Assembly: GCA_017541265.1 (NCBI GenBank)
Contig: JAFXZK010000085.1
Span: 1-50,500, forward strand
From: Bacteroidaceae bacterium
GTDB lineage: Bacteria; Bacteroidota; Bacteroidia; Bacteroidales; Bacteroidaceae
Direction: 5' to 3'
DNA: 50,500 bases
Shown: positions 14,351-48,447 of the stretch, piece after piece
How the letters are laid out: every line of letters starts with the position of its first letter
Position numbering within the stretch: position 1 is the stretch's first letter
Program-made: the position numbers and the translations under genes
The notes under the pieces: model-generated
What the model was told of the DNA's origin: nothing
Databases searched by the model: none
What the model saw: the letters and a program-made list of their open reading frames with translations, nothing else

Positions 14351-15715
14351 TTATATTATACTGTTCAATATCTCGTTGGGGGCGAGAAGTTGCTGTTCGC
14401 CCGTTGTCATATTCTTGAGCATGACCTTTCCAGCGGCCATCTCTGTCTCGCCGGTCATGGCGACGAAGGGGATGCTCTTCTGGTTGGCGTACTGCATCTG
14501 CTTCTTCATCTTGGCAGCATCAGGATAGATTTCGCAGCGGATGCCTTGTGCCCGTAGCTTGGCGATGACGGGAAGCGAGTAGGCCGTTTCCTTCTTGCCG
14601 AAGTTGATGAAGAGCACCTGTGTGGTTGTCGTGACGGCTTCGGGATAGAGGTCGAGTTGGTTCAGTACGTCATAGATGCGGTCGGCACCAAAGCTGATGC
14701 CCACGCCGCTTAAGCCTGGCATACCGAAGATGCCGGTCAGGTTGTCGTAGCGTCCACCGCCTGTAATGCTGCCGATCTCCACGTCCAGAGCCTTCACCTC
14801 GAAGATGCAGCCAGTGTAATAGTTCAGACCGCGGGCCAAAGTAAGGTCGAGTTCTATCTGATTATTCAGAGTATTCTGATTATTCAGAGTATTCAGAACC
14901 AGCTCCACTTCATCAATGCCCTTCTGCCCTATCTCGCTGCCTGCAAGTGCCTCTCGCATGGTAACTATCTTCTCGGCGTTCGTGCCGCTGAGGTTGATGA
15001 TGGGTTGGAGCTTCTGGATGGCTTCTTCGCTGATGCCGTCCTGCCGCAGTTCTTCATTGACTGCATCGAGACCAATCTTGTCGAGCTTGTCAATGGCAAC
15101 GGTGATGTCCACAATTTTGTCCGCTTCGCCAATCATCTCGGCAATGCCGCTTAGTATCTTGCGGTTGTTTATCTTGATGCAAACACGAATACCAAAGCGG
15201 CGGAACACTTCGTCGATGATTTGCATCAGTTCCACCTCGCAGAGCAACGAGTCGCTGCCCACGACGTCGGCGTCGCATTGATAGAACTCGCGGTAGCGTC
15301 CCTTCTGCGGACGGTCAGCACGCCAAACAGGCTGAATCTGATAGCGGCGGAACGGCAGCGCCAGTTCCTCGCGGTGCTGCACGACGTAGCGGGCAAAGGG
15401 CACGGTCAGGTCGTAGCGAAGCCCTTTCTCACAAAGCTGGGCAGCGAGATGACCTGTTGCGCCAGCGGCGAGGTCGTCGGGAGTGATGCCGCGCAGAAAG
15501 TCGCCGCTGTTCAGAATCTTGAAGAGCAGTTTGTCGCCCTCCTCGCCGTATTTGCCCATGAGGGTGGAAAGATTCTCCATGGCAGGCGTTTCTATCTGCT
15601 CGAAGCCGTAGAGGGAATAAACCTCGCGAATGGTATTGAAGATGTAGTTGCGCCGCGACATCTCCTGTGGGCCGAAGTCGCGTGTGCCTTTTGGTATGCT
15701 TGGTTTCTGTGCCAT
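14351..15715 (-). CDS. hisS: Histidyl-tRNA synthetase
   Basis: A 454-residue class II synthetase that charges tRNA-His. The ATG at 15715 starts the conserved [16 protein letters not shown]. Further signatures are [36 protein letters not shown] (motif 2) and [15 protein letters not shown] with GGGRYDNL (histidine-binding and motif 3 region). A perfect 18-bp tandem duplication at 14857-14892 encodes the repeated NTLNNQ in a surface loop before [11 protein letters not shown] full Bacteroidota promoter lies upstream at 15758-15789. Confidence 0.95.
14857..14892. repeat. 18-bp tandem duplication inside hisS
   Basis: TCTGATTATTCAGAGTAT occurs twice in direct succession (14857-14874 and 14875-14892) and adds six codons per copy in frame. 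A partial third copy (TCAGAACC) follows. Copy-number change would keep the frame. Confidence 0.8.
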
Positions 15716-15757
15716 ATATGTAGATATTACAATGTGCGATTTGACTGTTTTAAGTTG

Positions 15758-15789
15758 CAAATATACAATTAAAATTCGACATGGCAAAA
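15758..15789 (-). promoter_or_regulatory. Promoter of hisS
   Basis: On the minus strand, TTTTG (15789-15785) and TATATTTG (15765-15758) are separated by 19 bases, a textbook Bacteroidota -33/-7 pair, 43 bases before the ATG at 15715. Confidence 0.75.
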
Positions 15790-15805: not shown

Positions 15806-16714
15806 TTAACCTTGCTCTGTAATTGCCTTGAAATATCCAACGCTTTCTGCAATGCCGATGAAAGGGTCGTTCATGTCCTTTTCATATTCAAGGCTTACTG
15901 AGCCTTTGTAGCCCACTTTGCGAAGCATTTTGACGAAAGCAGGAAAGTCGATGATGCCACGGCCAAGCTCGATGGCATGTCCTTCTTTTGTGGGAGCTGT
16001 GACGTCCTTGAGATGGATGTCGAAAACGCGCTTCGCATAACGCTTCAAGTCGCGAATCGAGTCACTGCCATAACGCAGGTTATGCCCGATGTCGAGACAC
16101 ATGCCAAGTCGTGGGTCGCGGTCTTTTACATCGTTCCAGATAGAGGTTGCATCGGGATAGAGTGTCATGTCGGGACCATGCAAGTGGATAGCATAGCGAA
16201 TGTTTGTCTCTTTGACCTTCTGCTCCACACGGTCGAGCACCTCGTAATTGGGTGTCGTATCGCCCCAAACTCCAGGAACGCCAACAATAAGGTCAACACC
16301 TACTCGCTGGGCGTATGCGAAGGCCTTGTCAACAGCCGCAACGTCTTTCATGTATATCGGGCCGACAGCATAGCCGATGACGTTTGCTGCTTCAAGTTTT
16401 GCCTTGAAGGCTGCAATCTGTTCCGCATCGGCATCAAGGGGTAAGTGAAAATCCTTGATGCAGAGATAGTGCACATCTATCTTCTTCATGAATGCAAGCG
16501 TGGTGTCGAGGTCAAACTTAACAAAGGTATAGCCTGCCATGCCAAGATGGAAGGAAGTACCTTCTGACCTATCCCGTGAAGAGGATGTTTTAATCGTTGA
16601 GTTATCGCTTTTGGGGGAAGTCTGCCCAAAAGCATCGAAAGGAATTACCAGCAATGCGGTGCCTGCCAAACTGCTGCGAAGAAATGTCCTGCGATTAACC
16701 ATATTCTGAACCAT
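15806..16714 (-). CDS. Exported sugar-phosphate isomerase/epimerase-like TIM-barrel protein
   Basis: A 302-residue protein of the AP-endonuclease-2-type TIM barrel family. The N-terminus NRRTFLRSSLAGTALLVIPF is a twin-arginine export signal, so the protein likely acts in the periplasm. Barrel metal ligands are suggested by RYAIHLHGPDMTLYPD, GMCLDIGHNLRYG, FDIHLKDV and SLEYEKDM (the E, D-H, H and E pattern). The sugar substrate is unknown; relatives act on sugars or inositols. ATG 16714 is used, but an ATG at 16702 just before NRRTF is also possible. A low-complexity KTSSSRDRSEGTS linker follows the signal. Confidence 0.82.
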   Translation of the reverse strand: MVQNMVNRRTFLRSSLAGTALLVIPFDAFGQTSPKSDNSTIKTSSSRDRSEGTSFHLGMAGYTFVKFDLDTTLAFMKKIDVHYLCIKDFHLPLDADAEQIAAFKAKLEAANVIGYAVGPIYMKDVAAVDKAFAYAQRVGVDLIVGVPGVWGDTTPNYEVLDRVEQKVKETNIRYAIHLHGPDMTLYPDATSIWNDVKDRDPRLGMCLDIGHNLRYGSDSIRDLKRYAKRVFDIHLKDVTAPTKEGHAIELGRGIIDFPAFVKMLRKVGYKGSVSLEYEKDMNDPFIGIAESVGYFKAITEQG

Positions 16715-16793: not shown

Positions 16794-16801
16794 TATCTTT
16801 G
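16794..16801 (+). promoter_or_regulatory. -7 promoter box of the TIR/ATPase/DUF4435 operon
   Basis: TATCTTTG matches TAnnTTTG and lies 15 bases before the ATG at 16817. The leader is short and A-rich (GCAAAAAAAGAGAACC), favourable for start selection in Bacteroidota. Confidence 0.65.
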
Positions 16802-16816
16802 CAAAAAAAGAGAACC

Positions 16817-17344
16817 ATGAACACGCATAAAACTTATGTAGCCTACGATGCAACAGGCGTACTTGACCATGTAAATAGCAACCTTCGGACCTTCAAGCAA
16901 CTGCATGCCTGGCAGCGGATGCATCCAGATCGTTTCCACTTTCTGAACATGGACGTGATCAACTTCTCGTCCGAACACGATGACCTCGTTGACAGCACTG
17001 TCAAGAATTGGCTCCTTAGCGTCATGGAAAAGGCCGACAACCTATTGGTACTTGTTTCTCCTGTCACAAATGTGGAGAGTCCCATCCTTAACTGGCAAAT
17101 AAGCAAAGCCGTCAACCGATTTCATTTGCCGGTCATCATTGCCTACGTTGGAAAGCAACAGCTTAATGACAATGCCGTAGAGGATAATTGGAGCCGCCTG
17201 CCTAACAAGATACGCAAGTACATCGGCCGCGACTCGGCCCGCATGTGCCACATTCCTCTTACGCAAGACAAGCTTGAACGCGCCCTCGGCACATTCTCCG
17301 TCGGCGCACAGACATATCCCTGGAACTCAACAACAATTTTTTAA
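16817..17344 (+). CDS. TIR-like domain protein, gene 1 of a PARIS-like operon
   Basis: A 175-residue soluble protein. The segment KNWLLSVMEKADNLLVLVSP followed by VTNVESPILNWQISKAV and HLPVIIAYVG matches the second half of TIR-like (MTH538/DUF1863) domains. In that family S-x-x-x-W-x-E normally places the catalytic Glu of NADase TIRs. Here the position is Gln94 (NWQIS), so NAD cleavage is doubtful. ATG 16817 is chosen over upstream codons because it directly follows the promoter leader. The ATPase gene starts 8 bases downstream. I infer a sensing or scaffold role in a defence complex. The TIR assignment is by pattern only. Confidence 0.7.
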   Translation: MNTHKTYVAYDATGVLDHVNSNLRTFKQLHAWQRMHPDRFHFLNMDVINFSSEHDDLVDSTVKNWLLSVMEKADNLLVLVSPVTNVESPILNWQISKAVNRFHLPVIIAYVGKQQLNDNAVEDNWSRLPNKIRKYIGRDSARMCHIPLTQDKLERALGTFSVGAQTYPWNSTTIF

Positions 17345-17352
17345 GACAGACA

Positions 17353-18162
17353 ATGAACGGACAATACATTGAACGCATTGAGATAGAAGCTCTCTGGAAC
17401 GGGCGCAAGCACATCCGCTGGGACTTGCAGCCAGGTGTCAACATCCTGAGCGGTGTCAATGGTGTGGGCAAGAGCACGATACTCAATCGTGTCATCATGC
17501 ACCTCCTTGACATTAACAAAGAAGGACGCAAAAACGATGGTGTTCACCTCACATTCTTCCCCAAAGATGCGAAGTCTGTAGATTTCAATGTCATACGTTC
17601 CTTCGACCGGCCTATCCTTTCGAGCGACCTGATGAACAAGCTCACGGACACACAAATGCAGACAGAGCTTGATGTGCACATCTATCATCTTCAGCGCAAG
17701 TGGCTTGACTATCAAGTCAACCTGTCAAACCGCATGGTGGAACTCTTCACGAGCCAAGACCCGGAAGCCCCGGAGAAAGTGCGAGAGCTGGCAAACAAGA
17801 AGTCTCACTTTCAGGACATCGTGGACGACCTCTTCCGCGAGACAGGCAAGACCATCAAGCGCGACCAGAACGAACTATATTTTGACAACTACGGCGAGAC
17901 CATCTCCTGCTACAAGCTTTCTTCGGGTGAAAAACAGATGCTCATCATCCTGCTCACCGTCTTGGTGCAAGACAATAAGCCATTTGTTCTCTTTATGGAC
18001 GAGCCGGAAGTCAGCCTTCACGTCGAATGGCAGGAACGATTGCTTGACCTTATGGTTGACCTCAACCCCAACGTACAAATCATCCTCACGACACACAGCC
18101 CTGCCGTCATTATGAACGGATGGAGCGACAGAGTGACAGACGTGGAGGACATTGTGGTATAA
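17353..18162 (+). CDS. ABC/AAA-type ATPase (AriA/OLD-like), gene 2 of the operon
   Basis: A 269-residue ATPase with Walker A SGVNGVGKSTILN (residues 33-45), an ABC-type signature LSSGEKQ (189-195), Walker B FVLFMDEPE (211-219) and an H-loop TTHSP (246-250). This is the AAA_21/AAA_15 head found in OLD, AriA and Rad50-like proteins. Charged helices between about 100 and 170 probably form a short coiled insertion. It is smaller than typical PARIS AriA (from memory about 400 residues). Its 3' partner encodes a DUF4435 protein, the same pairing as AriA-AriB. DUF4435 starts 1 base after this stop, so the two are translationally linked. Confidence 0.85.
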   Translation: MNGQYIERIEIEALWNGRKHIRWDLQPGVNILSGVNGVGKSTILNRVIMHLLDINKEGRKNDGVHLTFFPKDAKSVDFNVIRSFDRPILSSDLMNKLTDTQMQTELDVHIYHLQRKWLDYQVNLSNRMVELFTSQDPEAPEKVRELANKKSHFQDIVDDLFRETGKTIKRDQNELYFDNYGETISCYKLSSGEKQMLIILLTVLVQDNKPFVLFMDEPEVSLHVEWQERLLDLMVDLNPNVQIILTTHSPAVIMNGWSDRVTDVEDIVV

Positions 18163-18163
18163 T

Positions 18164-19180
18164 ATGGCAAAGCGGCTGCAGGAACATCTAAACTCCACCT
18201 ATATCGAGCTTGCATCAAAGCTTCGGCCGAAAGATGCGGCACGGAAGGTCGTGGCATATGTCGAGAGTTACGACGACGTGTTCTTCTGGCGTTCCGTCCT
18301 GCAGGATTTCGAGACCGACAGGATAAAGTTTGAGGTGATGCTACCCTCGCGCCACACATTGAGCAAAGGCAAGAAGGCTGCCTTAATGAACCGCCTCGGG
18401 CCTTCCCTTGGCGACTTCATGGTTGCATGTGTGGATGCCGATTACGACTACCTTATGCAAGGTGCGACCGAGGTGAGCCGCAAGCTTCTTGGCTCTCCTT
18501 TCATTTTCCACACTTACGCCTATGCTATCGAGAACTACCAGTGCTACGCGCCTTCCCTGCACACAGCCTGCGTGATGGCAACGCTCAACGACCGCGACAT
18601 TCTGTCCTTCGAGGCTTTCCTCGAAGCTTACAGCCGCATCGTCTGGCCGCTCTTTGTGTGGAGCATCTGGGCGCACCGATACGGTCAGGCTGGCATTTAC
18701 AGCATCACCGACTTTGCCCAGACCGTCACCTTCCACGACATAAATCCCTGGCATCCCGAGAACGCTCTCGAACATCTGCGCGACCGCGTCAACAAACAGA
18801 TTGGATGGCTGCAACGTAAATTTCCAAAAGCAAAGGACACTTACCTGAAACTGCGCAAGACCATGCAGGAAGAGCTTGGCATTCTCCCAGCCGACACTTA
18901 TTTATATATACAGGGCCACGCACTGATGGACGGAGTTGTCCTGCCTCTCCTGACGCCAGTCTGCAACATTCTCCGCCGAGAAAGGGAGAAAGAGATTACC
19001 GGACTGGCACTTCACGGCAAGCAGAAGCAGACCGAGATGTCCGGCTACCATCACAGTCAGTCGCCCATCGACCTCATGCTCCGCAAAGGCGTTGCTTTTA
19101 AGCGGAGTGCCCCCTACCAGAAGCTTCGTGCAGACCTTGAGAAGCTCATCGAAAGAATCAGCAAACGCCTTCCTGCTTGA
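18164..19180 (+). CDS. DUF4435 TOPRIM-like protein (AriB-like), gene 3 of the operon
   Basis: A 338-residue protein. The opening KVVAYVESYDDVFFWRSVL and later DFMVACVDADYDYL fit the TOPRIM nuclease pattern: Glu34, then Asp91 and Asp93 of DxD. In PARIS, the DUF4435 partner AriB is the nuclease effector released by the ATPase. A similar toxic-effector role here is inferred. The C-terminal half is helical with basic patches. ATG 18164 is used; an upstream TTG at 18152 would overlap the ATPase stop. The last 23 bases overlap the end of the convergent pfkB-family gene, allowing antisense interference. Confidence 0.82.
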   Translation: MAKRLQEHLNSTYIELASKLRPKDAARKVVAYVESYDDVFFWRSVLQDFETDRIKFEVMLPSRHTLSKGKKAALMNRLGPSLGDFMVACVDADYDYLMQGATEVSRKLLGSPFIFHTYAYAIENYQCYAPSLHTACVMATLNDRDILSFEAFLEAYSRIVWPLFVWSIWAHRYGQAGIYSITDFAQTVTFHDINPWHPENALEHLRDRVNKQIGWLQRKFPKAKDTYLKLRKTMQEELGILPADTYLYIQGHALMDGVVLPLLTPVCNILRREREKEITGLALHGKQKQTEMSGYHHSQSPIDLMLRKGVAFKRSAPYQKLRADLEKLIERISKRLPA

Positions 19181-20351
19181 GGTACTTGTCGTAAAGTTCC
19201 TGCAGATAGGACAGCTTCTCGCCTTCCTTCTGTTCGAGGTAGGTGCCACCGTAGTAGAAGCAGGCAAAGCCTCCAGAGACAATGCCCCAACGGCAAGCCT
19301 CTTTTAAATTGAGCGAAGAGTGAAGCCCCTCACTTATCTGCTTTGCCAGAGAACCGATGACGCCGCCTGCGAAGTTATCGCCACAACCTGTGCTGTCGCC
19401 TTTGCGTCCTTGCTTCAACGCCTTGCCGACGGCTTCGGAAACAGGCATTGTCTGCTCCTTAACTTTGCCGAAGAGAGGGCTGTTTGCCCAAAGATGGACA
19501 TTATGGGCGCCGTTGGTGACGAGCACTGCCCCTGTCCCTTTCTCGCGGAAGAATGCAATAGCCGAAGGAATATCACAGCATCCACTGAGACGAAGCGCTT
19601 CCTCATGGTCAACAAGAAGCAGGTCGATGTACTGATAACTCTCGTCGCTCTCGCCCATCGGCCATCGTTCGCCCGGATGTTCCTTCTCGCTGAGGAAGTC
19701 ATATACGGTGTTGACTACGGTGATACGACCTTTTGCTTTTGCTTTCTTGAGCATCGCACATAGTCCACCATGAATGCGGGGCACGAGTGCCGTGCTGCCG
19801 AAGACGCAAATGTCACTATCGTAGAAACTGTCGTCCACTTCTTCTGGAAGATAATGCCACGATGCTCCGATGGTGTTCACGAAAGTCCTTTCGCCGTGAC
19901 CGTTGTCATAGTTCGGGTCAGAAAGCACACTTGTAGAGGCTGTCTCGCTGTCCCTTTGTATGCGATAATGGCTGAGGTCGAGCTTCGTCTGCTCCAGTTT
20001 CTGCAACAGCTCCTCCCCTACTCCATCGTCGCCTCGGCAGCCGTAGAAGCTAACGAGGCTTTCCTTAAAGGCAATCTGTGAGGCATTGATGAGCGCCACG
20101 ATGCAGGGGCCGCCGATGTTTTCCTTCTGAGGCGCACGTCCTTCGGTAAGCAAAGGCAGTATGTCTGACGCGAATGATTGGCCGGCAAAGTGTTCCAGCT
20201 CTTCCTCGAAGGTCAGCTTGCCGGGTTCAAGTCCGCCGTCGCCAGCCTTCTTGCTCAAGTATTTGCGGAAAGTTTCCGACTGGAAGTCAACGTGGTCATA
20301 AATGCGGTCGAGCAGGCAACAGCCTACTCCGCTGATACGAATCCTATTCAT
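19158..20351 (-). CDS. PfkB-family sugar kinase, probable fructokinase of the mannoside block
   Basis: A 397-residue ribokinase-fold enzyme. The catalytic anion-hole motif GDSTGCGDNFAGGVIG near the C-terminus is the PfkB signature (DTxGAGD variant with Ser and Cys). NIGGPCIVALINASQ and GCRGDDGVGEELLQ match the N-terminal GG region. At 397 residues it is longer than usual (about 310), with an extended N-terminal segment (residues 25-75). Upstream on the same strand are a D-lyxose/mannose isomerase, GH92 and an aldolase, so it probably phosphorylates fructose or a related ketose. A 22-bp repeat array lies directly before its start. Confidence 0.82.
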   Translation of the reverse strand: MNRIRISGVGCCLLDRIYDHVDFQSETFRKYLSKKAGDGGLEPGKLTFEEELEHFAGQSFASDILPLLTEGRAPQKENIGGPCIVALINASQIAFKESLVSFYGCRGDDGVGEELLQKLEQTKLDLSHYRIQRDSETASTSVLSDPNYDNGHGERTFVNTIGASWHYLPEEVDDSFYDSDICVFGSTALVPRIHGGLCAMLKKAKAKGRITVVNTVYDFLSEKEHPGERWPMGESDESYQYIDLLLVDHEEALRLSGCCDIPSAIAFFREKGTGAVLVTNGAHNVHLWANSPLFGKVKEQTMPVSEAVGKALKQGRKGDSTGCGDNFAGGVIGSLAKQISEGLHSSLNLKEACRWGIVSGGFACFYYGGTYLEQKEGEKLSYLQELYDKYLKQEGVC

Positions 20352-20389
20352 AAACTTTTATTTATAAAGTGTGTCTAAATGGACAAGAC

Positions 20390-20522
20390 ACGCTCCGTTT
20401 GGTTTTTCCCACACGTGGTAAAACCAAATTAGGCACGTTGTGTTGGCGAATGCAGCACGTTGCGTTGGCAAACTAGGCACGTCGTGTTGGCAAACTAGGC
20501 ACGCTGTGTTGGGTTGGAGTTT
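20390..20522. repeat. 22-bp-period repeat array B
   Basis: CACG words start at 20390, 20413, 20435, 20457, 20479 and 20501 (spacing 23, then 22 four times). The best units are CACGTTGCGTTGGCAAACTA and CACGTCGTGTTGGCAAACTA, each followed by GG. The array sits between the isomerase stop and the pfkB start. It is bracketed by inverted AAGTGTGTCTAAATGG and TTTTGACACACCTT. On the opposite strand its unit matches CACGCCTAATTTGCAAACAC of the array at 38322. Confidence 0.7.
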
Positions 20523-20555
20523 CTTTTCATTTTGACACACCTTCACTATAACTCC

Positions 20556-21233
20556 TTAAATTAGGAACTTCCCGTAGTCGGAACACAGGAGGTGCAGCGG
20601 TTCTTCATCCTCTTCGATTTCGGGGAAGCGGCCAACGGGTTCATAGAAACGGTTGTCGGTCGTGTCGTCGTTGCACTGGCTCACTTCGCCCACCATGACT
20701 TTGCCTTTACCGGGTTCGCCATAGAAGCGGTGATAGAGGTACTGCTCCATGCAGATGCTCTGACCTGGTTTAAGGATGACTTTGCCGCCTGGCTCCATCG
20801 TATGCTCTATGCCGTCGATGCGGTAATGCACATGCGTGTCGGCGAAGCCTTCGTTCTTGTCCGCATTGTAGAGTTCGATTACCAAGTTGCCGCCGCCACG
20901 ATTGATGATGTCTTCCATCTTCGACCAATGGAAGTGCATCGGCGTTTCCTGGTTCTCCTCCACAATCATAATCTTTTCTGCGTAGGGCTTCTTATCTACG
21001 CCATATTTGCCATTGCGTATCGTGAAGAGGAAGAGACCGCAACGCTTGAAGTCGCCCGAGCCGAAGTCTGTAATGTCCCAGCCAAGCATACGCTCCACAA
21101 TGTAGTCCACCTTGTTTCTGTTTGCCTTCCAGTCGGCAAGGCTCCACTCTGCCCATTCGGGCAACACGAACTGCCGCGAAGCCAAGAATGTCTTGGCCTC
21201 ACGGATGATTTGATTGATTTCGCTACGTTTCAT
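20556..21233 (-). CDS. D-lyxose/D-mannose ketol-isomerase
   Basis: A 225-residue cupin-fold enzyme of the D-lyxose isomerase family, which also interconverts mannose and fructose. Metal ligands are visible in TPMHFHWSKMEDIINRGGGN (two His and a Glu) and in MEQYLYHRFYGEPG. Residues near the N-terminus (QFVLPEWAEWSLADWK) are also typical. It is 20 bases downstream of a GH92 mannosidase, suggesting it turns the released mannose into fructose for the PfkB kinase that follows. Confidence 0.85.
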   Translation of the reverse strand: MKRSEINQIIREAKTFLASRQFVLPEWAEWSLADWKANRNKVDYIVERMLGWDITDFGSGDFKRCGLFLFTIRNGKYGVDKKPYAEKIMIVEENQETPMHFHWSKMEDIINRGGGNLVIELYNADKNEGFADTHVHYRIDGIEHTMEPGGKVILKPGQSICMEQYLYHRFYGEPGKGKVMVGEVSQCNDDTTDNRFYEPVGRFPEIEEDEEPLHLLCSDYGKFLI

Positions 21234-21253
21234 GATATATTGTTATATGTTAA

Positions 21254-23434
21254 TTATTTAAAGGTTTCTTTGTTTGGCTTGTTGCCCATCTTCAGTTCCA
21301 ACGTGCCGCCCGCCGTCAGTTGTTCGTGAGTGAGGAAAGGTTCTGTCAGAGGCTTGCCATTCAACTTGGCACTCTGGATGAACTTGTTTTCCGCCGAGAG
21401 GTCCTTTGCTTTGATGGTAAATGCCTTTCCGTCGGGAAGATGGATTGTTGTCTTTTCGAAGAAGGGACTGCCGATGGCGTAGGTTGTCGTGCCTGGTGTG
21501 ACGGGGAAGAAGCCCATCATAGAGAAGACCACGAAGGCCGACATGCCGCCGCCATCCTCGTCGCCCGGCATACCGAGATACGAGTCGATGAAGTAGGTGT
21601 CGATGAGGCTGTGGATGTACTTCTGCGTCTTCCAGGGCGCACCTACATAATTATATATATAAGGTATATGGAAGCTGGGTTCGTTGCCCATTTGGAACAT
21701 GCCCATGAGGCCTGTTGCGTCAGGCAGGACATTATAGAAGCGGAACTTGGCCGTGCCAACACCCATGTGGAAAAGCTCGTCGAGCTTGGCCTCCGCCTTC
21801 TCGTGTCCGCCCATCAGGGAGAAGAGTCCCTCCAGGTCGTGCTTCACGTCCCAGTTGAAGATGTAGGCGTTGTTCTCGGTGAAGTAGGCGCGTCCGTCGT
21901 GCAAGGGATTGAAGGGTTCTATCCACTCGCCCTTGTCGTCCTTTGGCCACATCATGCCTCGGTCGGTGCGGAAGACGTTGCGGTAGAACTTCGAGCGCTC
22001 TGTGAACAATGCCTCGTCGTCTGCCTTGCCCAGTATCTTTGCCATTTGCGCAATGCACCAGTCGGAGTAGCTGTTGACCGTTGTGATTGACACACTTTGG
22101 CGACGCTCCCAGTTGGGGTCGACCTCGGGAATGGTCTCTGGCTCGCCCGGATGCAGGGCTGGATAGTAGCCGTGGGCGTTGTAGAAGGTGTCGAGCGGTG
22201 TGGCTGGGCCTGTGTGCCACGGAAGCATGGAGCGTTCCAGCGAGTTCTTGCGGAAGCCTTCGTAGGCAGTCTCCAAGTCGAAACGCAGTCCCTTTGCCCA
22301 AGCGTCCAGCATCCAGACAGCTGCAAAGTTGCCTGTCATGGCTGCCCACTCGCCAGAAGTGAGGGCGAAGCGTGGCATGATGCCGCTCTCTTTATACATT
22401 TCAATGAGTGAGTTTATCTTCTGCACCTCCATGTCTGGGTTCAAGATAATGTGCAACGGCTCAAGTGCGATGTGCGTGTCCCACAGCCAGTTATCAACAT
22501 AGAAAGGCTCTTTCGCCTCATGTACCTTCCTGTCCCAAGCGCTGAAGAAGCGTCCATACTCATTGATATCGACCATGCGCTCCGAGCAACGATAGAGGGC
22601 TGTGTAGAAGGTACGCTTGTGGGCTTCCGTGCCGCCGCTTACCTCTATCTGCCCCAGGCGCTTTTCCCATGTATTCTTGGCTTCGTCCTTGACGCGATCG
22701 AAGTCAAATGTCGGAATTTCCCGCAGCATGTTGTCCTTCGCCTGTTCCTTGTCGATGTAGGAGATGCCGTAGCGCATCGTCACGACCTTCTTCCCATCTT
22801 CTGCTGTCAGCATCAGGTGCTTTGTGTCTTCTCCGGGGTAATGGATGTCGTGCATATCGCAGTCGAACTCGGCATAAAGGTAGGCAGTCATGTTCTCCTT
22901 GGTTTCTGGTCGGCCGAACGCTGCCGTGCCTGTCACAACGCGGTTGCCTTCGTGGTCATAGAAGCCGATGGGTGTGCGGCTGCGGAAACGCATAGGATGC
23001 TGTCCCTCGCCGTCGAAAGTCATACGGATGATGCCGCTTTTCTTGGCAGGGGTAAACTCGAAGGTCACGCCGTCAAGCTGTGCGTGATAGTAATGGGGAT
23101 GCGTCTCTTCGTTGTCACATACGCCTGGAGCCGACCACACGCTCTCCGGGGTGAGTGTGCAGAAAGGCATGAAGCCAAAGACCCAATGCCTCCGGTGGTT
23201 GGGCATTTGCAGGGCGAAGTCGTCTATCCAATCGTCGAGCATACTGCTTCGCAGGGGCACGAACCGCAGCATCTCGTTTGGCAGGTGTATGGTCTGCCTT
23301 GTGGTTTCCAGCAAGACACTAACGCCGCCGATGGTCGGATCGGCATAATCGGTCAGGGACTTCTTTGTGTCACCTCCGCAAGCAAATAGTGTAAGACAGA
23401 GGCCAAGTATCAAGGAAGAATATCTGAATGTCAT
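21254..23434 (-). CDS. GH92 alpha-mannosidase, lipoprotein
   Basis: A 726-residue exo-alpha-mannosidase of family GH92 (calcium-dependent, inverting). The lipobox LTLFACGG (Cys19) predicts a lipoprotein in the outer membrane or periplasm. Family signatures: an N-terminal beta-sandwich (VFGFMPFCTLTPESVWSAPG), FYTALYRCSERM, LWDTHIALEPL, GNEPSFHIPYIYNYVGAPWK, and MPGDEDGGGMSAFVVFSMMG, which holds catalytic and calcium-binding acids. It probably trims N-glycan or yeast mannan alpha-mannosides. Upstream DNA has a CGTTATTACGTTATTTCG word array. Confidence 0.92.
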   Translation of the reverse strand: MTFRYSSLILGLCLTLFACGGDTKKSLTDYADPTIGGVSVLLETTRQTIHLPNEMLRFVPLRSSMLDDWIDDFALQMPNHRRHWVFGFMPFCTLTPESVWSAPGVCDNEETHPHYYHAQLDGVTFEFTPAKKSGIIRMTFDGEGQHPMRFRSRTPIGFYDHEGNRVVTGTAAFGRPETKENMTAYLYAEFDCDMHDIHYPGEDTKHLMLTAEDGKKVVTMRYGISYIDKEQAKDNMLREIPTFDFDRVKDEAKNTWEKRLGQIEVSGGTEAHKRTFYTALYRCSERMVDINEYGRFFSAWDRKVHEAKEPFYVDNWLWDTHIALEPLHIILNPDMEVQKINSLIEMYKESGIMPRFALTSGEWAAMTGNFAAVWMLDAWAKGLRFDLETAYEGFRKNSLERSMLPWHTGPATPLDTFYNAHGYYPALHPGEPETIPEVDPNWERRQSVSITTVNSYSDWCIAQMAKILGKADDEALFTERSKFYRNVFRTDRGMMWPKDDKGEWIEPFNPLHDGRAYFTENNAYIFNWDVKHDLEGLFSLMGGHEKAEAKLDELFHMGVGTAKFRFYNVLPDATGLMGMFQMGNEPSFHIPYIYNYVGAPWKTQKYIHSLIDTYFIDSYLGMPGDEDGGGMSAFVVFSMMGFFPVTPGTTTYAIGSPFFEKTTIHLPDGKAFTIKAKDLSAENKFIQSAKLNGKPLTEPFLTHEQLTAGGTLELKMGNKPNKETFK

Positions 23435-23440
23435 GATTTC

Positions 23441-23482
23441 TGTTCGATATTTCGTTATTACGTTATTTCGTTATTACGACAC
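23441..23482. repeat. AT-rich word array before the GH92 gene
   Basis: CGTTATTACGTTATTTCGTT with a further TATTACG, preceded by CGATATTTCG, just upstream of the GH92 ATG. The word differs from those at other loci but has the same layout. Confidence 0.55.
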
Positions 23483-23506
23483 TATTATGCCACGTTTGCG
23501 GCCCGA

Positions 23507-24340
23507 CTATATTCTCCCGTCACTCTCAAAGAGGCGGATGTGTTCTGTAACAACTTCGCGCGATGCGTCTATCATCACCTGCTTCAGCGGCACATATTCC
23601 TCTTCGGGCTTTAGTGCAAGGCGTTCCTTAATGCGTTTCATGATGCCGCGCTGGATGGCTGTGGCGACGTTTATCTTGCAGATGCCGTTATGGATGCAGG
23701 CTTTGAAGTCCTCTACGCTCGTGCCGCTTCCGCCGTGCAAGACAAGCGGCAGACGGTTTGCCTCGTGTATTTCTATGAGGCGTTGGATGTTGAGCTGCGG
23801 GGTGTGGACGTAATGTCCGTGCAGATTGCCGATGGCTACAGCCAATGCATCGATACCCGTTTCATTCACGAAGCGCACAGATTCCTCCACGTCGGTGAAG
23901 ACATCCGCCGTGTCAACGCCGCAGTTGCCCACCTTGCCAAGCTCTGCCTCCATGTCAACGCCCGCGGCCTTAGCAATGCGCGTCACCTCTTTGCTCACAG
24001 CGACGTTCTCCTCAAAAGGCAGTGCCGCGCCGTCGAACATCACGGAAGTGAAGCCAAGCCGTATGGCTTTCACGCACGTTTCGAGGCTCTGCCCGTGGTC
24101 GAGGTGTACGCAAACAGGCACCGACGACCGCTTGGCAGCTTCGAGATAGAGCGGAGCCATCAGTTCCATTGGTGCTTCGGGGAACTGCACTTCCGCCAGT
24201 TGCAGGATGATGGGTGAACGCAATTCCTCGGCTGCCTCAATGGCACCCATCACGTTCTCCAAACTCAAACAATTGAATGCGCCAACGGCATAGTGCCGTT
24301 CGTTGGCGTCTTTCAGTATTTCACTTAGTGTTACAAGCAT
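23507..24340 (-). CDS. Class II ketose-bisphosphate aldolase
   Basis: A 277-residue zinc-dependent aldolase of the FbaA/KbaY/GatY family. Zinc ligands: VCVHLDHGQS, GNLHGHYV and VLHGGSGTS. The phosphate-binding GICKINVATAIQ is also intact. The family cleaves fructose-1,6- or tagatose-1,6-bisphosphate into triose phosphates. It is the promoter-proximal member of the mannoside block (aldolase, GH92, isomerase, kinase). The M23 gene ends 31 bases upstream, so the whole block may also be read from further up. Confidence 0.88.
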   Translation of the reverse strand: MLVTLSEILKDANERHYAVGAFNCLSLENVMGAIEAAEELRSPIILQLAEVQFPEAPMELMAPLYLEAAKRSSVPVCVHLDHGQSLETCVKAIRLGFTSVMFDGAALPFEENVAVSKEVTRIAKAAGVDMEAELGKVGNCGVDTADVFTDVEESVRFVNETGIDALAVAIGNLHGHYVHTPQLNIQRLIEIHEANRLPLVLHGGSGTSVEDFKACIHNGICKINVATAIQRGIMKRIKERLALKPEEEYVPLKQVMIDASREVVTEHIRLFESDGRI

Positions 24341-45654: not shown

Positions 45655-46596
45655 ATGAAAAAACACATCCTTTTACTTCTGTTGCTCTTTGCCTCTCTCC
45701 TCCCACTAAAGGGTGTCGGGGGGTATGCTTTGGCACAGCGCACCAACCAGGCGTACTGGACCTACATTGACAAGTACAAGGATTGGGCAGTCGAGCAGAT
45801 GAAGCAGTACCACATCCCTGCAAGCATCACTCTGGCACAAGGTTTGCTGGAAAGCAATGCCGGGCGCAGCAGGCTGGCGACACAAGCCAACAATCACTTC
45901 GGCATCAAGGTTGGCGGCGGTTGGACTGGTCCCTATATCGTGCAAAGTGACGACCGTCCCAACGACAGGTTCCGCAAGTACAAAAGCGCACGCGAGAGCT
46001 ACATCGACCACTCGAAGTTCTTGCAGCAAAAGCGCTATCAAGGTCTCTATCGCCTCAATCCGACAGACTACAAAGGCTGGGCGCGAGGGCTGAAGGCAGC
46101 AGGCTATGCCACCAGTCCGTCCTATGCCGACGCACTTATCCGCGTCATCGAGATGTATAACCTGCATCAGTTCGACAAAGGCAAGTACAGCTCGTCGAAG
46201 AAGTCCCAGACATCCGTTCCTGCTGTTGCAGCGGATGACTTCTTCCAGCGCCACGTCATTTATCGCAACAACAAGAACTACTTCCTTGTCGTAGAAGTGG
46301 GCGACGATATGGCAACCATCAGTCAGAAGACGGGTCTGAGCCTGCGCAAGCTCTACAAGTACAACGACCTGCCGCGCGACTATGCCCCGACAGCTGGCGA
46401 CATCATTTATCTGAAAAAGAAGCGCAACTGCGCATCGCGCGAGTTCCGCAAGAACCCCATCCACATCGTCGAGGTGAACCAAAGCCTCTTCGACATCGCA
46501 CAGCTCTACGGCATCCGCCTGGAGTCGCTCTGCAAACTGAACAATTGGGACGAACCCCAAGCCGTTCAGGTGGGAGATATATTAAGGATAAGATGA
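45655..46596 (+). CDS. Secreted glucosaminidase with LysM repeats
   Basis: A 313-residue peptidoglycan hydrolase. The ATG at 45655 opens a signal peptide whose h-region carries LLPLKGVGG, derived from a GC-rich palindrome. The catalytic region (IPASITLAQGLLESNAGRSR, NNHFGIKVGG) is Flg_new/glucosaminidase-type with Glu in LLESNAG. LysM-like wall-binding repeats follow (FLVVEVGDDMATISQKTGLS, HIVEVNQSLFDIAQLYGIR). It acts in the periplasm. Confidence 0.9.
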   Translation: MKKHILLLLLLFASLLPLKGVGGYALAQRTNQAYWTYIDKYKDWAVEQMKQYHIPASITLAQGLLESNAGRSRLATQANNHFGIKVGGGWTGPYIVQSDDRPNDRFRKYKSARESYIDHSKFLQQKRYQGLYRLNPTDYKGWARGLKAAGYATSPSYADALIRVIEMYNLHQFDKGKYSSSKKSQTSVPAVAADDFFQRHVIYRNNKNYFLVVEVGDDMATISQKTGLSLRKLYKYNDLPRDYAPTAGDIIYLKKKRNCASREFRKNPIHIVEVNQSLFDIAQLYGIRLESLCKLNNWDEPQAVQVGDILRIR

Positions 46597-46604
46597 GGAC
46601 CCCC

Positions 46605-46735
46605 CCAGTTCTGGCGGATTTGAAATCCGACAGCCAGTATTAACATAAGCATTTGAAATGCGATAAAACATAAGTTGCGGGATTATAAATCCCCGTACTC
46701 CATACAGTCGGATTGCAAATCCGACCGAACAAGAG
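46605..46735. repeat. Interspersed palindrome cluster (GGATTTGCAATCC family), copy 2
   Basis: This chain parallels 5270-5395: TTCTGGCGGATTTGAAATCC, AAGCATTTGAAATGCG, GGGATTATAAATCCCC and GGATTGCAAATCCGACCG. The spacer order is conserved but the pairs have diverged. Confidence 0.75.
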
Positions 46736-46782
46736 GGAGAGATAATACGAATAAGGTAAAGACCCCTTACCCCCTTGACGGG

Positions 46783-46820
46783 ATTAAGTGGTAAATGGAA
46801 AATGATTAAATAGTAATTGA
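46783..46820. repeat. AT-rich word array before the ABC-F gene
   Basis: GGTAAATGGAAAATGATTAA followed by ATAGTAATTG, the same words as at 3838-3871, ending just before the ATG at 46825. Confidence 0.5.
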
Positions 46821-46824
46821 TTAG

Positions 46825-48447
<1,623 letters not shown>

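Follow-up and report, generated by a model that had tools for sequence, protein, structure and literature searches.

A PARIS-type ATPase-DUF4435 pair with the distribution of a core module in one Bacteroidales family, preceded in one clade by a probably non-catalytic ThsB-like TIR gene

Introduction

PARIS is an antiviral system in which an ABC/AAA ATPase gene (ariA) is followed by a gene for a DUF4435 TOPRIM nuclease (ariB). In the Escherichia coli system an AriA hexamer holds three AriB subunits inactive; a phage trigger frees AriB, which dimerizes and cuts tRNA (PMC12409363). The published detection rule combines score thresholds for AAA_15/AAA_21 and DUF4435, and ariAB was reported in 5.2% of genomes (PMC9122126). 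The TIR proteins of Thoeris, ThsB, form the second point of comparison. The active-site residues of EcThsB2 are E89 and Y8, and despite its glutamate the protein is reported to have shown no NADase activity (PMC11204291). In Staphylococcus aureus Thoeris, the ThsB2 substitution E81Q disrupted immunity, while ThsB1 bound a phage capsid protein and mutations in the ThsB1 active site had no effect (PMC12578639). Non-catalytic sensing by a ThsB therefore has precedent.

Here we describe a locus in which genes of both kinds stand in a row. The window, meaning the whole stretch of DNA that was analysed, comprises 50,500 nt of a Bacteroidaceae bacterium (assembly GCA_017541265.1, contig JAFXZK010000085.1). 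A first-pass annotation made from its sequence had proposed a PARIS-like defence operon with an extra TIR partner. We arrive at a modified reading, to which we give a probability of about 0.55: a core ATPase-DUF4435 module of PARIS type, topped in one clade by a non-catalytic ThsB-like TIR protein.

Organization of the locus

Table 1. Features of the locus and its flanks, in window coordinates
Feature	Coordinates	Strand	Basis or remark
hisS, beyond the xylose-isomerase-like gene	14351-15787		
Flank: xylose-isomerase-like TIM barrel gene, divergent from the operon	15806..16714	-	No PADLOC match
TATCTTTG, Bacteroides-type -7 promoter element (TAnnTTTG)	16794..16801	+	23 nt 5′ of the TIR start codon
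TIR-like gene (ThsB-like, 175 aa)	16817..17344	+	ORF call, Pfam, PADLOC
AriA-like short ABC/AAA ATPase gene (269 aa)	17353..18162	+	ORF, Pfam, PADLOC; motif columns in 69 distinct sequences
DUF4435 (AriB-like) TOPRIM nuclease gene (338 aa)	18164..19180	+	ORF, Pfam, PADLOC
Flank: PfkB sugar kinase gene, convergent	19158..20351	-	No PADLOC match

The three-gene row annotated at first pass, with gaps of 8 nt (TIR-ATPase) and 1 nt (ATPase-DUF4435), was reproduced by ORF calling, Pfam and PADLOC (Table 1). All three genes lie on the same strand in the loci whose sequence was read, and over 29 linked loci, those with the TIR gene adjoining the pair, the gaps range from 2 to 92 nt and from -4 to 129 nt, respectively. 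The PfkB gene overlaps the 3′ end of the DUF4435 gene by 23 nt. Past it lie D-lyxose isomerase, GH92 and class II aldolase genes, which taken together with the PfkB kinase (19158-24340, - strand) suggest a sugar-use cluster. Pfam and PADLOC scans of ten window neighbours showed genes of metabolism or housekeeping, with no PADLOC match to a defence gene and no ThsA effector among them.

The promoter motif recurs. Of the 34 linked loci examined (from 58 linked genomes, with TIR-ATPase gaps of up to 331 nt in this set), 32 have the Bacteroides -7 consensus TAnnTTTG (PMC7366714) no more than 80 nt from the TIR start, against an expectation of 0.02 per stretch from the window average. It occurs in none of the 16 TIR-ATPase gaps of at least 45 nt. 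Immediately 5′ of the ATPase gene it was found in 0/47 genomes with a linked TIR versus 28/46 with an unlinked TIR (11/18) or no TIR (17/28); the 0/47 count is favoured because this stretch is in many cases part of the TIR gene itself, a bias of which the 0/16 long-gap count is free. Of the 19 unlinked TIR genes, 15 have it as well. These counts support a single promoter that would serve the TIR, ATPase and DUF4435 genes, as the first-pass annotation had supposed.

The three proteins

ATPase. The protein matches AAA_21 at 78.4 bits (threshold 27) and AAA_15 at 69.8 bits (threshold 32.1), and PADLOC assigns it to AriA with an E-value of 1e-61 (253-position model). By the published PARIS rule, with cut-offs of 32 for AAA_15 and 27 for AAA_21, both scores pass, and the adjacent DUF4435 also lies above threshold. 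Walker A (SGVNGVGKST, residues 33-42), the signature (LSSGEKQ, 189-195), Walker B (FMDEPE, 214-219) and the switch His248 are all present, in columns invariant or nearly so over 69 distinct sequences, those outside length limits having been dropped. The protein has 269 residues versus 464 in E. coli AriA, and the aligned C-terminal stretch begins at 188 versus 365; most of the length difference therefore lies N-terminal to that stretch, and so the triggers may differ. Core ATPases of only 223 aa, with the motifs kept, are encoded in one lineage, genomes G105 and G012 (L191 2612-3283 and L192 1781-2452), the shortening falling between Walker A and the signature.

DUF4435 protein. The Pfam match scores 153.4 bits (E 1e-44) and the PADLOC match to AriB has an E-value of 3e-55, so that the AriA-AriB kinship claimed at first pass is borne out for both genes of the pair. 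Glu34 (18263-18265), Asp91 (18434-18436) and Asp93 (18440-18442), already picked out as residues of a TOPRIM nuclease, are invariant in 71/71 distinct sequences within the length limits applied. A single-sequence search for solved relatives returned none; in the predicted single-chain model AriB is the best fold match, and the fold is AriB/TOPRIM-like, in keeping with the TOPRIM geometry that had been anticipated. The pair thus has what PARIS requires in residues, an intact ATPase and the TOPRIM catalytic acids.

TIR-like protein. Pfam identifies ThsB_TIR (PF08937) at 29.9 bits (cut-off 21.2) and PADLOC identifies ThsB (E 1e-24). The fold of the predicted model likewise matches ThsB; evidence of fold thus covers two of the three proteins, this one and DUF4435, both as single-chain predictions. 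A single-sequence search found no solved relatives, and a profile built from 22 TIR sequences was needed to reach three PDB matches, each of which has Glu opposite position 94. In the window Gln94 (CAA, 17096-17098) sits at this catalytic Glu position, and Tyr7 is retained. Over 73 distinct TIR sequences position 94 is Gln in 72, Met in one and Glu in none. The Met occurs in a linked TIR of genome G117 (L187 2763-3356) and is the second non-acidic residue seen there. In the alignment with EcThsB2 (8v6t), position 94 and Tyr7 fall on sequence positions 92 and 11, which a three-residue offset would make the active-site E89 and Y8. The TIR-like protein is probably non-catalytic; the first-pass suggestion that it senses or scaffolds is favoured over a role as an enzyme, because the catalytic Glu is missing.

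Selection. Median dN/dS is 0.063 for the linked TIR (39 linked pairs), 0.118 for the ATPase and 0.073 for DUF4435. By this measure the linked TIR, the ATPase and DUF4435 are all under purifying selection.

Distribution of the pair and of the TIR gene

In the window's genus DUF4435 was found in 128 of 139 genomes, including all 18 with completeness ≥90% and contamination ≤5%. The histidyl-tRNA synthetase (HisRS), sought as a control in the same kind of search, was found in 127/139, one a weak partial match; the DUF4435 absences are therefore about what genome incompleteness gives. Across the family sample DUF4435 is present in 241 of 249 genomes and in all 22 genera, with 238 matches at E ≤1e-84. 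Of 192 locus records that leave 1 kb or more of room, 189 have the ATPase adjoining DUF4435, a count in which some genomes are represented more than once and from which contig-edge loci were dropped; the three exceptions all belong to another family, f103. In the order-wide sample, which includes the window's family, 22/295 genomes had a DUF4435 match.

Identity of DUF4435 to the window copy tracks HisRS identity (rho 0.67, n = 101). In distant members of the genus, however, DUF4435 is ~50-60% identical versus ~74-84% for HisRS: the gene is, on these comparisons, retained yet changing fast, at a pace that is high for a housekeeping gene. Neighbours recurring over 36 loci were an EamA transporter (10) and a SMUBP2-like helicase (10), named from Pfam, and dxs (8) and trkA (6), assigned by eye; we read no link to function from them. 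In a separate count one wrong-frame row (L150) was left out. In an annotated Bacteroides finegoldii record the neighbours of the pair are a DMT transporter, meaB and a mechanosensitive channel.

The TIR gene is found in 77/139 genomes of the genus. In 58 of these 77 it directly precedes the pair, the adjacency being deduced across contig ends for two of the 58; in the other 19 it lies at another site. The family sample yielded 13 TIR matches in 249 genomes: eleven from the window's genus, one relative at 44% identity and one weak 37-residue match. The outer flanks of the TIR-pair loci vary while the linkage of TIR and pair stays. In the TIR tree, which omits 8 of the 58 linked TIRs, the linked copies form one group with one change of state (50 linked and 19 unlinked rows; support 88/86). 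The pair tree holds 102 of the 128 DUF4435 genomes and four outgroup rows (26 genomes omitted, among them 4 of the 77 with TIR). All 73 of its TIR genomes fall within a clade of 84 (support 80), and the 18 genomes outside that clade are without TIR; TIR is absent from 11 of the 84, in a set of incomplete genomes. The two trees differ in the placement of one 14-genome linked group. TIR identity follows DUF4435 identity for linked copies (rho 0.93, n = 49), versus rho -0.68 (n = 14), and so no tracking, for unlinked ones.

Judged by sequence comparison, the ATPase-DUF4435 pair is near-universal, mostly single-copy and vertically inherited in the family, whether or not TIR accompanies it, and the TIR gene was added in one genus and is no defining member. 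The first-pass view of the locus as host-like and no obvious recent arrival agrees with the HisRS comparison and with the pair-tree clade. The idea of a triad that recurs beside further defence genes is not supported, given the near-universal, mostly single-copy pair and ten neighbours without a PADLOC match. Within the genus TIR adjoins the pair in most TIR genomes, a recurrence beyond chance. The annotation had itself named universal single-copy ATPase and DUF4435 genes without TIR as what would speak against it, and this is largely what the family sample contains.

A related family with the nuclease and mostly without the ATPase

Family f103, possibly Muribaculaceae, has DUF4435 in 59 of 60 genomes and 16/16 genera, counting as present several matches that contain a stop inside the matched stretch. 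An AriA-like ATPase was detected in 12/60 at E 1e-15 with a profile built from ATPases of several families; one match is weak, leaving about 11. An earlier ATPase search, run without a positive control, had given 0/11, and the later profile found true positives in this family. Where the ATPase is present it adjoins DUF4435 in six genomes (one at a contig edge) and lies apart in five, at ~150 kb in two, at ~51 kb in one and on other contigs in two. The nuclease residues Glu34, Asp91, Asp93, Asp95 and Glu123 are kept in all 26 f103 locus records compared; these come from 25 genomes, 19 of which gave no match to the ATPase profile. Examples of the f103 gene are L149 5889-7004 and L151 5835-6908.

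The survival of a nuclease with an intact active site where the ATPase is missing points to an independent function of this nuclease, and since it persists without the ATPase, gating by the ATPase cannot be universal. A search for a partner replacing the ATPase found no neighbour group in more than 5 of 23 loci, with ORF picking crude enough to lose DUF4435 itself in 10/23. The median dN/dS of the f103 nuclease (0.41, 14 pairs) was left unused, the sequences being mostly distant with GC-rich third positions.

Accessory pairs and mobile elements

A second, accessory ATPase-DUF4435 pair (21-27% identical) occurs in 9/139 genomes of the genus, including that of the window; a tenth second match is weak. 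In these pairs a short AriA adjoins DUF4435, its length mostly 241-319 aa with single ORFs of 360 and 189 aa, and restriction or methylation genes (Pfam) stand beside 3/9, some neighbours of each having been scanned. The pair in the window's genome (L140 6572-8349; contig C11, ~46571-48348) encodes an ATPase of 303 aa and a DUF4435 protein of 288 aa, with a PADLOC match to AriB at E 1e-105. The ATPases of L140, L145 and L146 lack the simple Walker A pattern G....GK[ST].

In the DUF4435 tree the 20 copies of the family form one group (94/96), joined to two f103 rows (95/85), and all nine accessory copies lie apart from this core group. The tree is midpoint-rooted and therefore shows no direction of change. 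Pairs beside housekeeping genes were also seen in three other Bacteroidales families: in f96 before ruvB (L152, L153, L155), in f4 behind ftsH and cdsA (L156, L157) and in f53 near a RecN-like gene (L158), neighbours being Pfam-checked in one locus of each. The f96 genus concerned has a copy in 5/5 genomes. As the f96, f4 and f53 pairs cluster with the accessory copies on the tree, not with the core group, they are a separate story.

DUF4435 had no match in phage records, and elsewhere gave one 24% match in viral contigs and hits to six plasmid records; TIR had no match in viral contigs. Two of the plasmid-labelled records, those from Bacteroidales, contain core DUF4435, NZ_OY725943.1 of B. 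finegoldii and OY726067.1 of Phocaeicola massiliensis (L280, L281). The former has the ATPase annotated beside DUF4435 and looks chromosomal, since it also contains rsmA and mgtE; the latter has no annotation under the DUF4435 match.

Proposed mechanism and alternatives

The reading that we prefer would work as follows. The ATPase and DUF4435 would constitute an old, vertically inherited core module of the family. By homology with PARIS, an oligomer of the AriA-like ATPase would hold the AriB-like nuclease inactive until a trigger arrives; the freed nuclease would cleave RNA (tRNA in E. coli PARIS), and this would slow or stop translation. By analogy with Thoeris, the non-catalytic TIR would be a sensor or adaptor feeding an extra signal, e.g. 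a phage protein, into the ATPase. Gating as in PARIS would be the simplest reading of the intact motifs. On what the module is for the evidence divides: f103 favours a cellular role, whereas fast evolution and kinship with PARIS favour immunity. A more speculative extension, which we think unlikely, makes DUF4435 a core TOPRIM ribonuclease of ancestral origin that has its own task in the cell in the window's family and f103, under the ATPase in the former and, after loss of the ATPase, alone in most sampled genomes of the latter. Mobile PARIS would then be its defence version, or the core pair a domesticated PARIS, with the dead TIR as phage input.

The purpose of the pair could differ from this in two ways, each of which we regard as possible though on balance doubtful. 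The locus might be a genuine PARIS antiviral system that became fixed in the family, with phage as its only trigger and the TIR as a second phage sensor. The published rule identifies it as such, its nuclease has the AriB fold and its sequence changes fairly fast, and S. aureus ThsB1 binds a phage capsid protein (PMC12578639); a system of this kind is nevertheless hard to square with near-universal, mostly single-copy retention, with ten neighbours free of defence genes, with the persistence of the nuclease without the ATPase in f103 and with the missing DUF4435 match in phage records. Alternatively, DUF4435 might be a housekeeping nuclease of RNA or DNA processing (e.g. tRNA/rRNA maturation, quality control), with an ATPase that regulates it in one family and that another family can do without. 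RNase M5 is a TOPRIM enzyme of RNA maturation. The catalytic site of AriB resembles that of RNase M5 (PMC12409363), and f103 offers the further support of DUF4435 in 59/60 genomes versus the ATPase in about 11/60, with the catalytic acids kept in all 26 f103 locus records although most of the genomes behind them have no ATPase match. Against such a role stand the fast evolution of the gene and its presence in only 22/295 genomes order-wide, from which it follows that the function is not a general one.

Two further alternatives concern the TIR gene. It could be an unrelated bystander that shares the promoter by chance, as the completeness of the pair without TIR in most of the family and the solitary TIR in 19/77 genomes would allow; we consider this improbable, for the linkage persists in 58/77 while the outer flanks change, the promoter motif lies 5′ of TIR and is absent from long TIR-ATPase gaps, and TIR is under purifying selection. 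The original proposal, an accessory, horizontally spread three-gene PARIS variant, has the domain content and the operon in its favour. It now seems very improbable, the pair being vertical and near-universal and TIR in the family sample being confined to the window's genus, the one 44% relative and the one weak match.

If the preferred reading of a core module is true, ordinary detection rules would score genomes of a dominant gut family as PARIS though the pair behaves as a core gene, and counts of defence systems would be distorted. The distribution offers a natural series made up of the pair with TIR, the pair alone, the pair split and the nuclease alone. It lends itself to questions about the regulation of a TOPRIM nuclease by an ATPase, about the activity of such a nuclease when no phage is present, and about the way in which an inactive TIR can become part of another machine. 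The pair is carried by a named Bacteroides record and by uncultured Phocaeicola genomes, so that tests in cultured laboratory strains are feasible.

Comparison with known systems

The main text of the PARIS survey contains no word beginning with Bacteroid- (PMC9122126), and its genome counts may include core pairs of the present kind. Our literature search brought up nothing relevant to PARIS as a core pair of Bacteroidales, or to any connection between PARIS and ThsB. This suggests that the locus is by its parts PARIS, already known, and that its core distribution and TIR addition are without match in the literature found.

Of Thoeris (EcThsB2 8v6t; 3hyn; 9uv0) the window has the ThsB TIR fold, and by the three-residue offset Tyr7 would be Tyr8 of EcThsB2; unlike ThsB of that system, the window-type TIR has Gln94 (Met once) and no catalytic Glu, and no ThsA lies adjacent among the ten neighbours. 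OLD-family and retron ATPase-TOPRIM proteins give a far weaker fold match than AriB, and here there are two separate genes. The short-AriA PARIS types of PADLOC (PDLC04164/PDLC04165) also have a short AriA adjoining DUF4435, but the copies of this type in the genus are sporadic (9/139), diverged and outside the core group. The closest system remains E. coli PARIS (PDB 8ux9, 8v45-8v49), with which the window shares the order of an ABC/AAA ATPase then a DUF4435 TOPRIM nuclease, the ATPase motifs, the catalytic Glu and Asp residues and the best fold match, AriB. The window differs from it in its ATPase of 269 rather than 464 aa. An accessory, sporadic distribution is typical of PARIS, if not strictly defining; the pair of the window is instead core (128/139 genomes of the genus, 241/249 of the family) and vertical, has TIR as its first gene in the window's genus, and in the related family f103 is represented by a nuclease without the ATPase.
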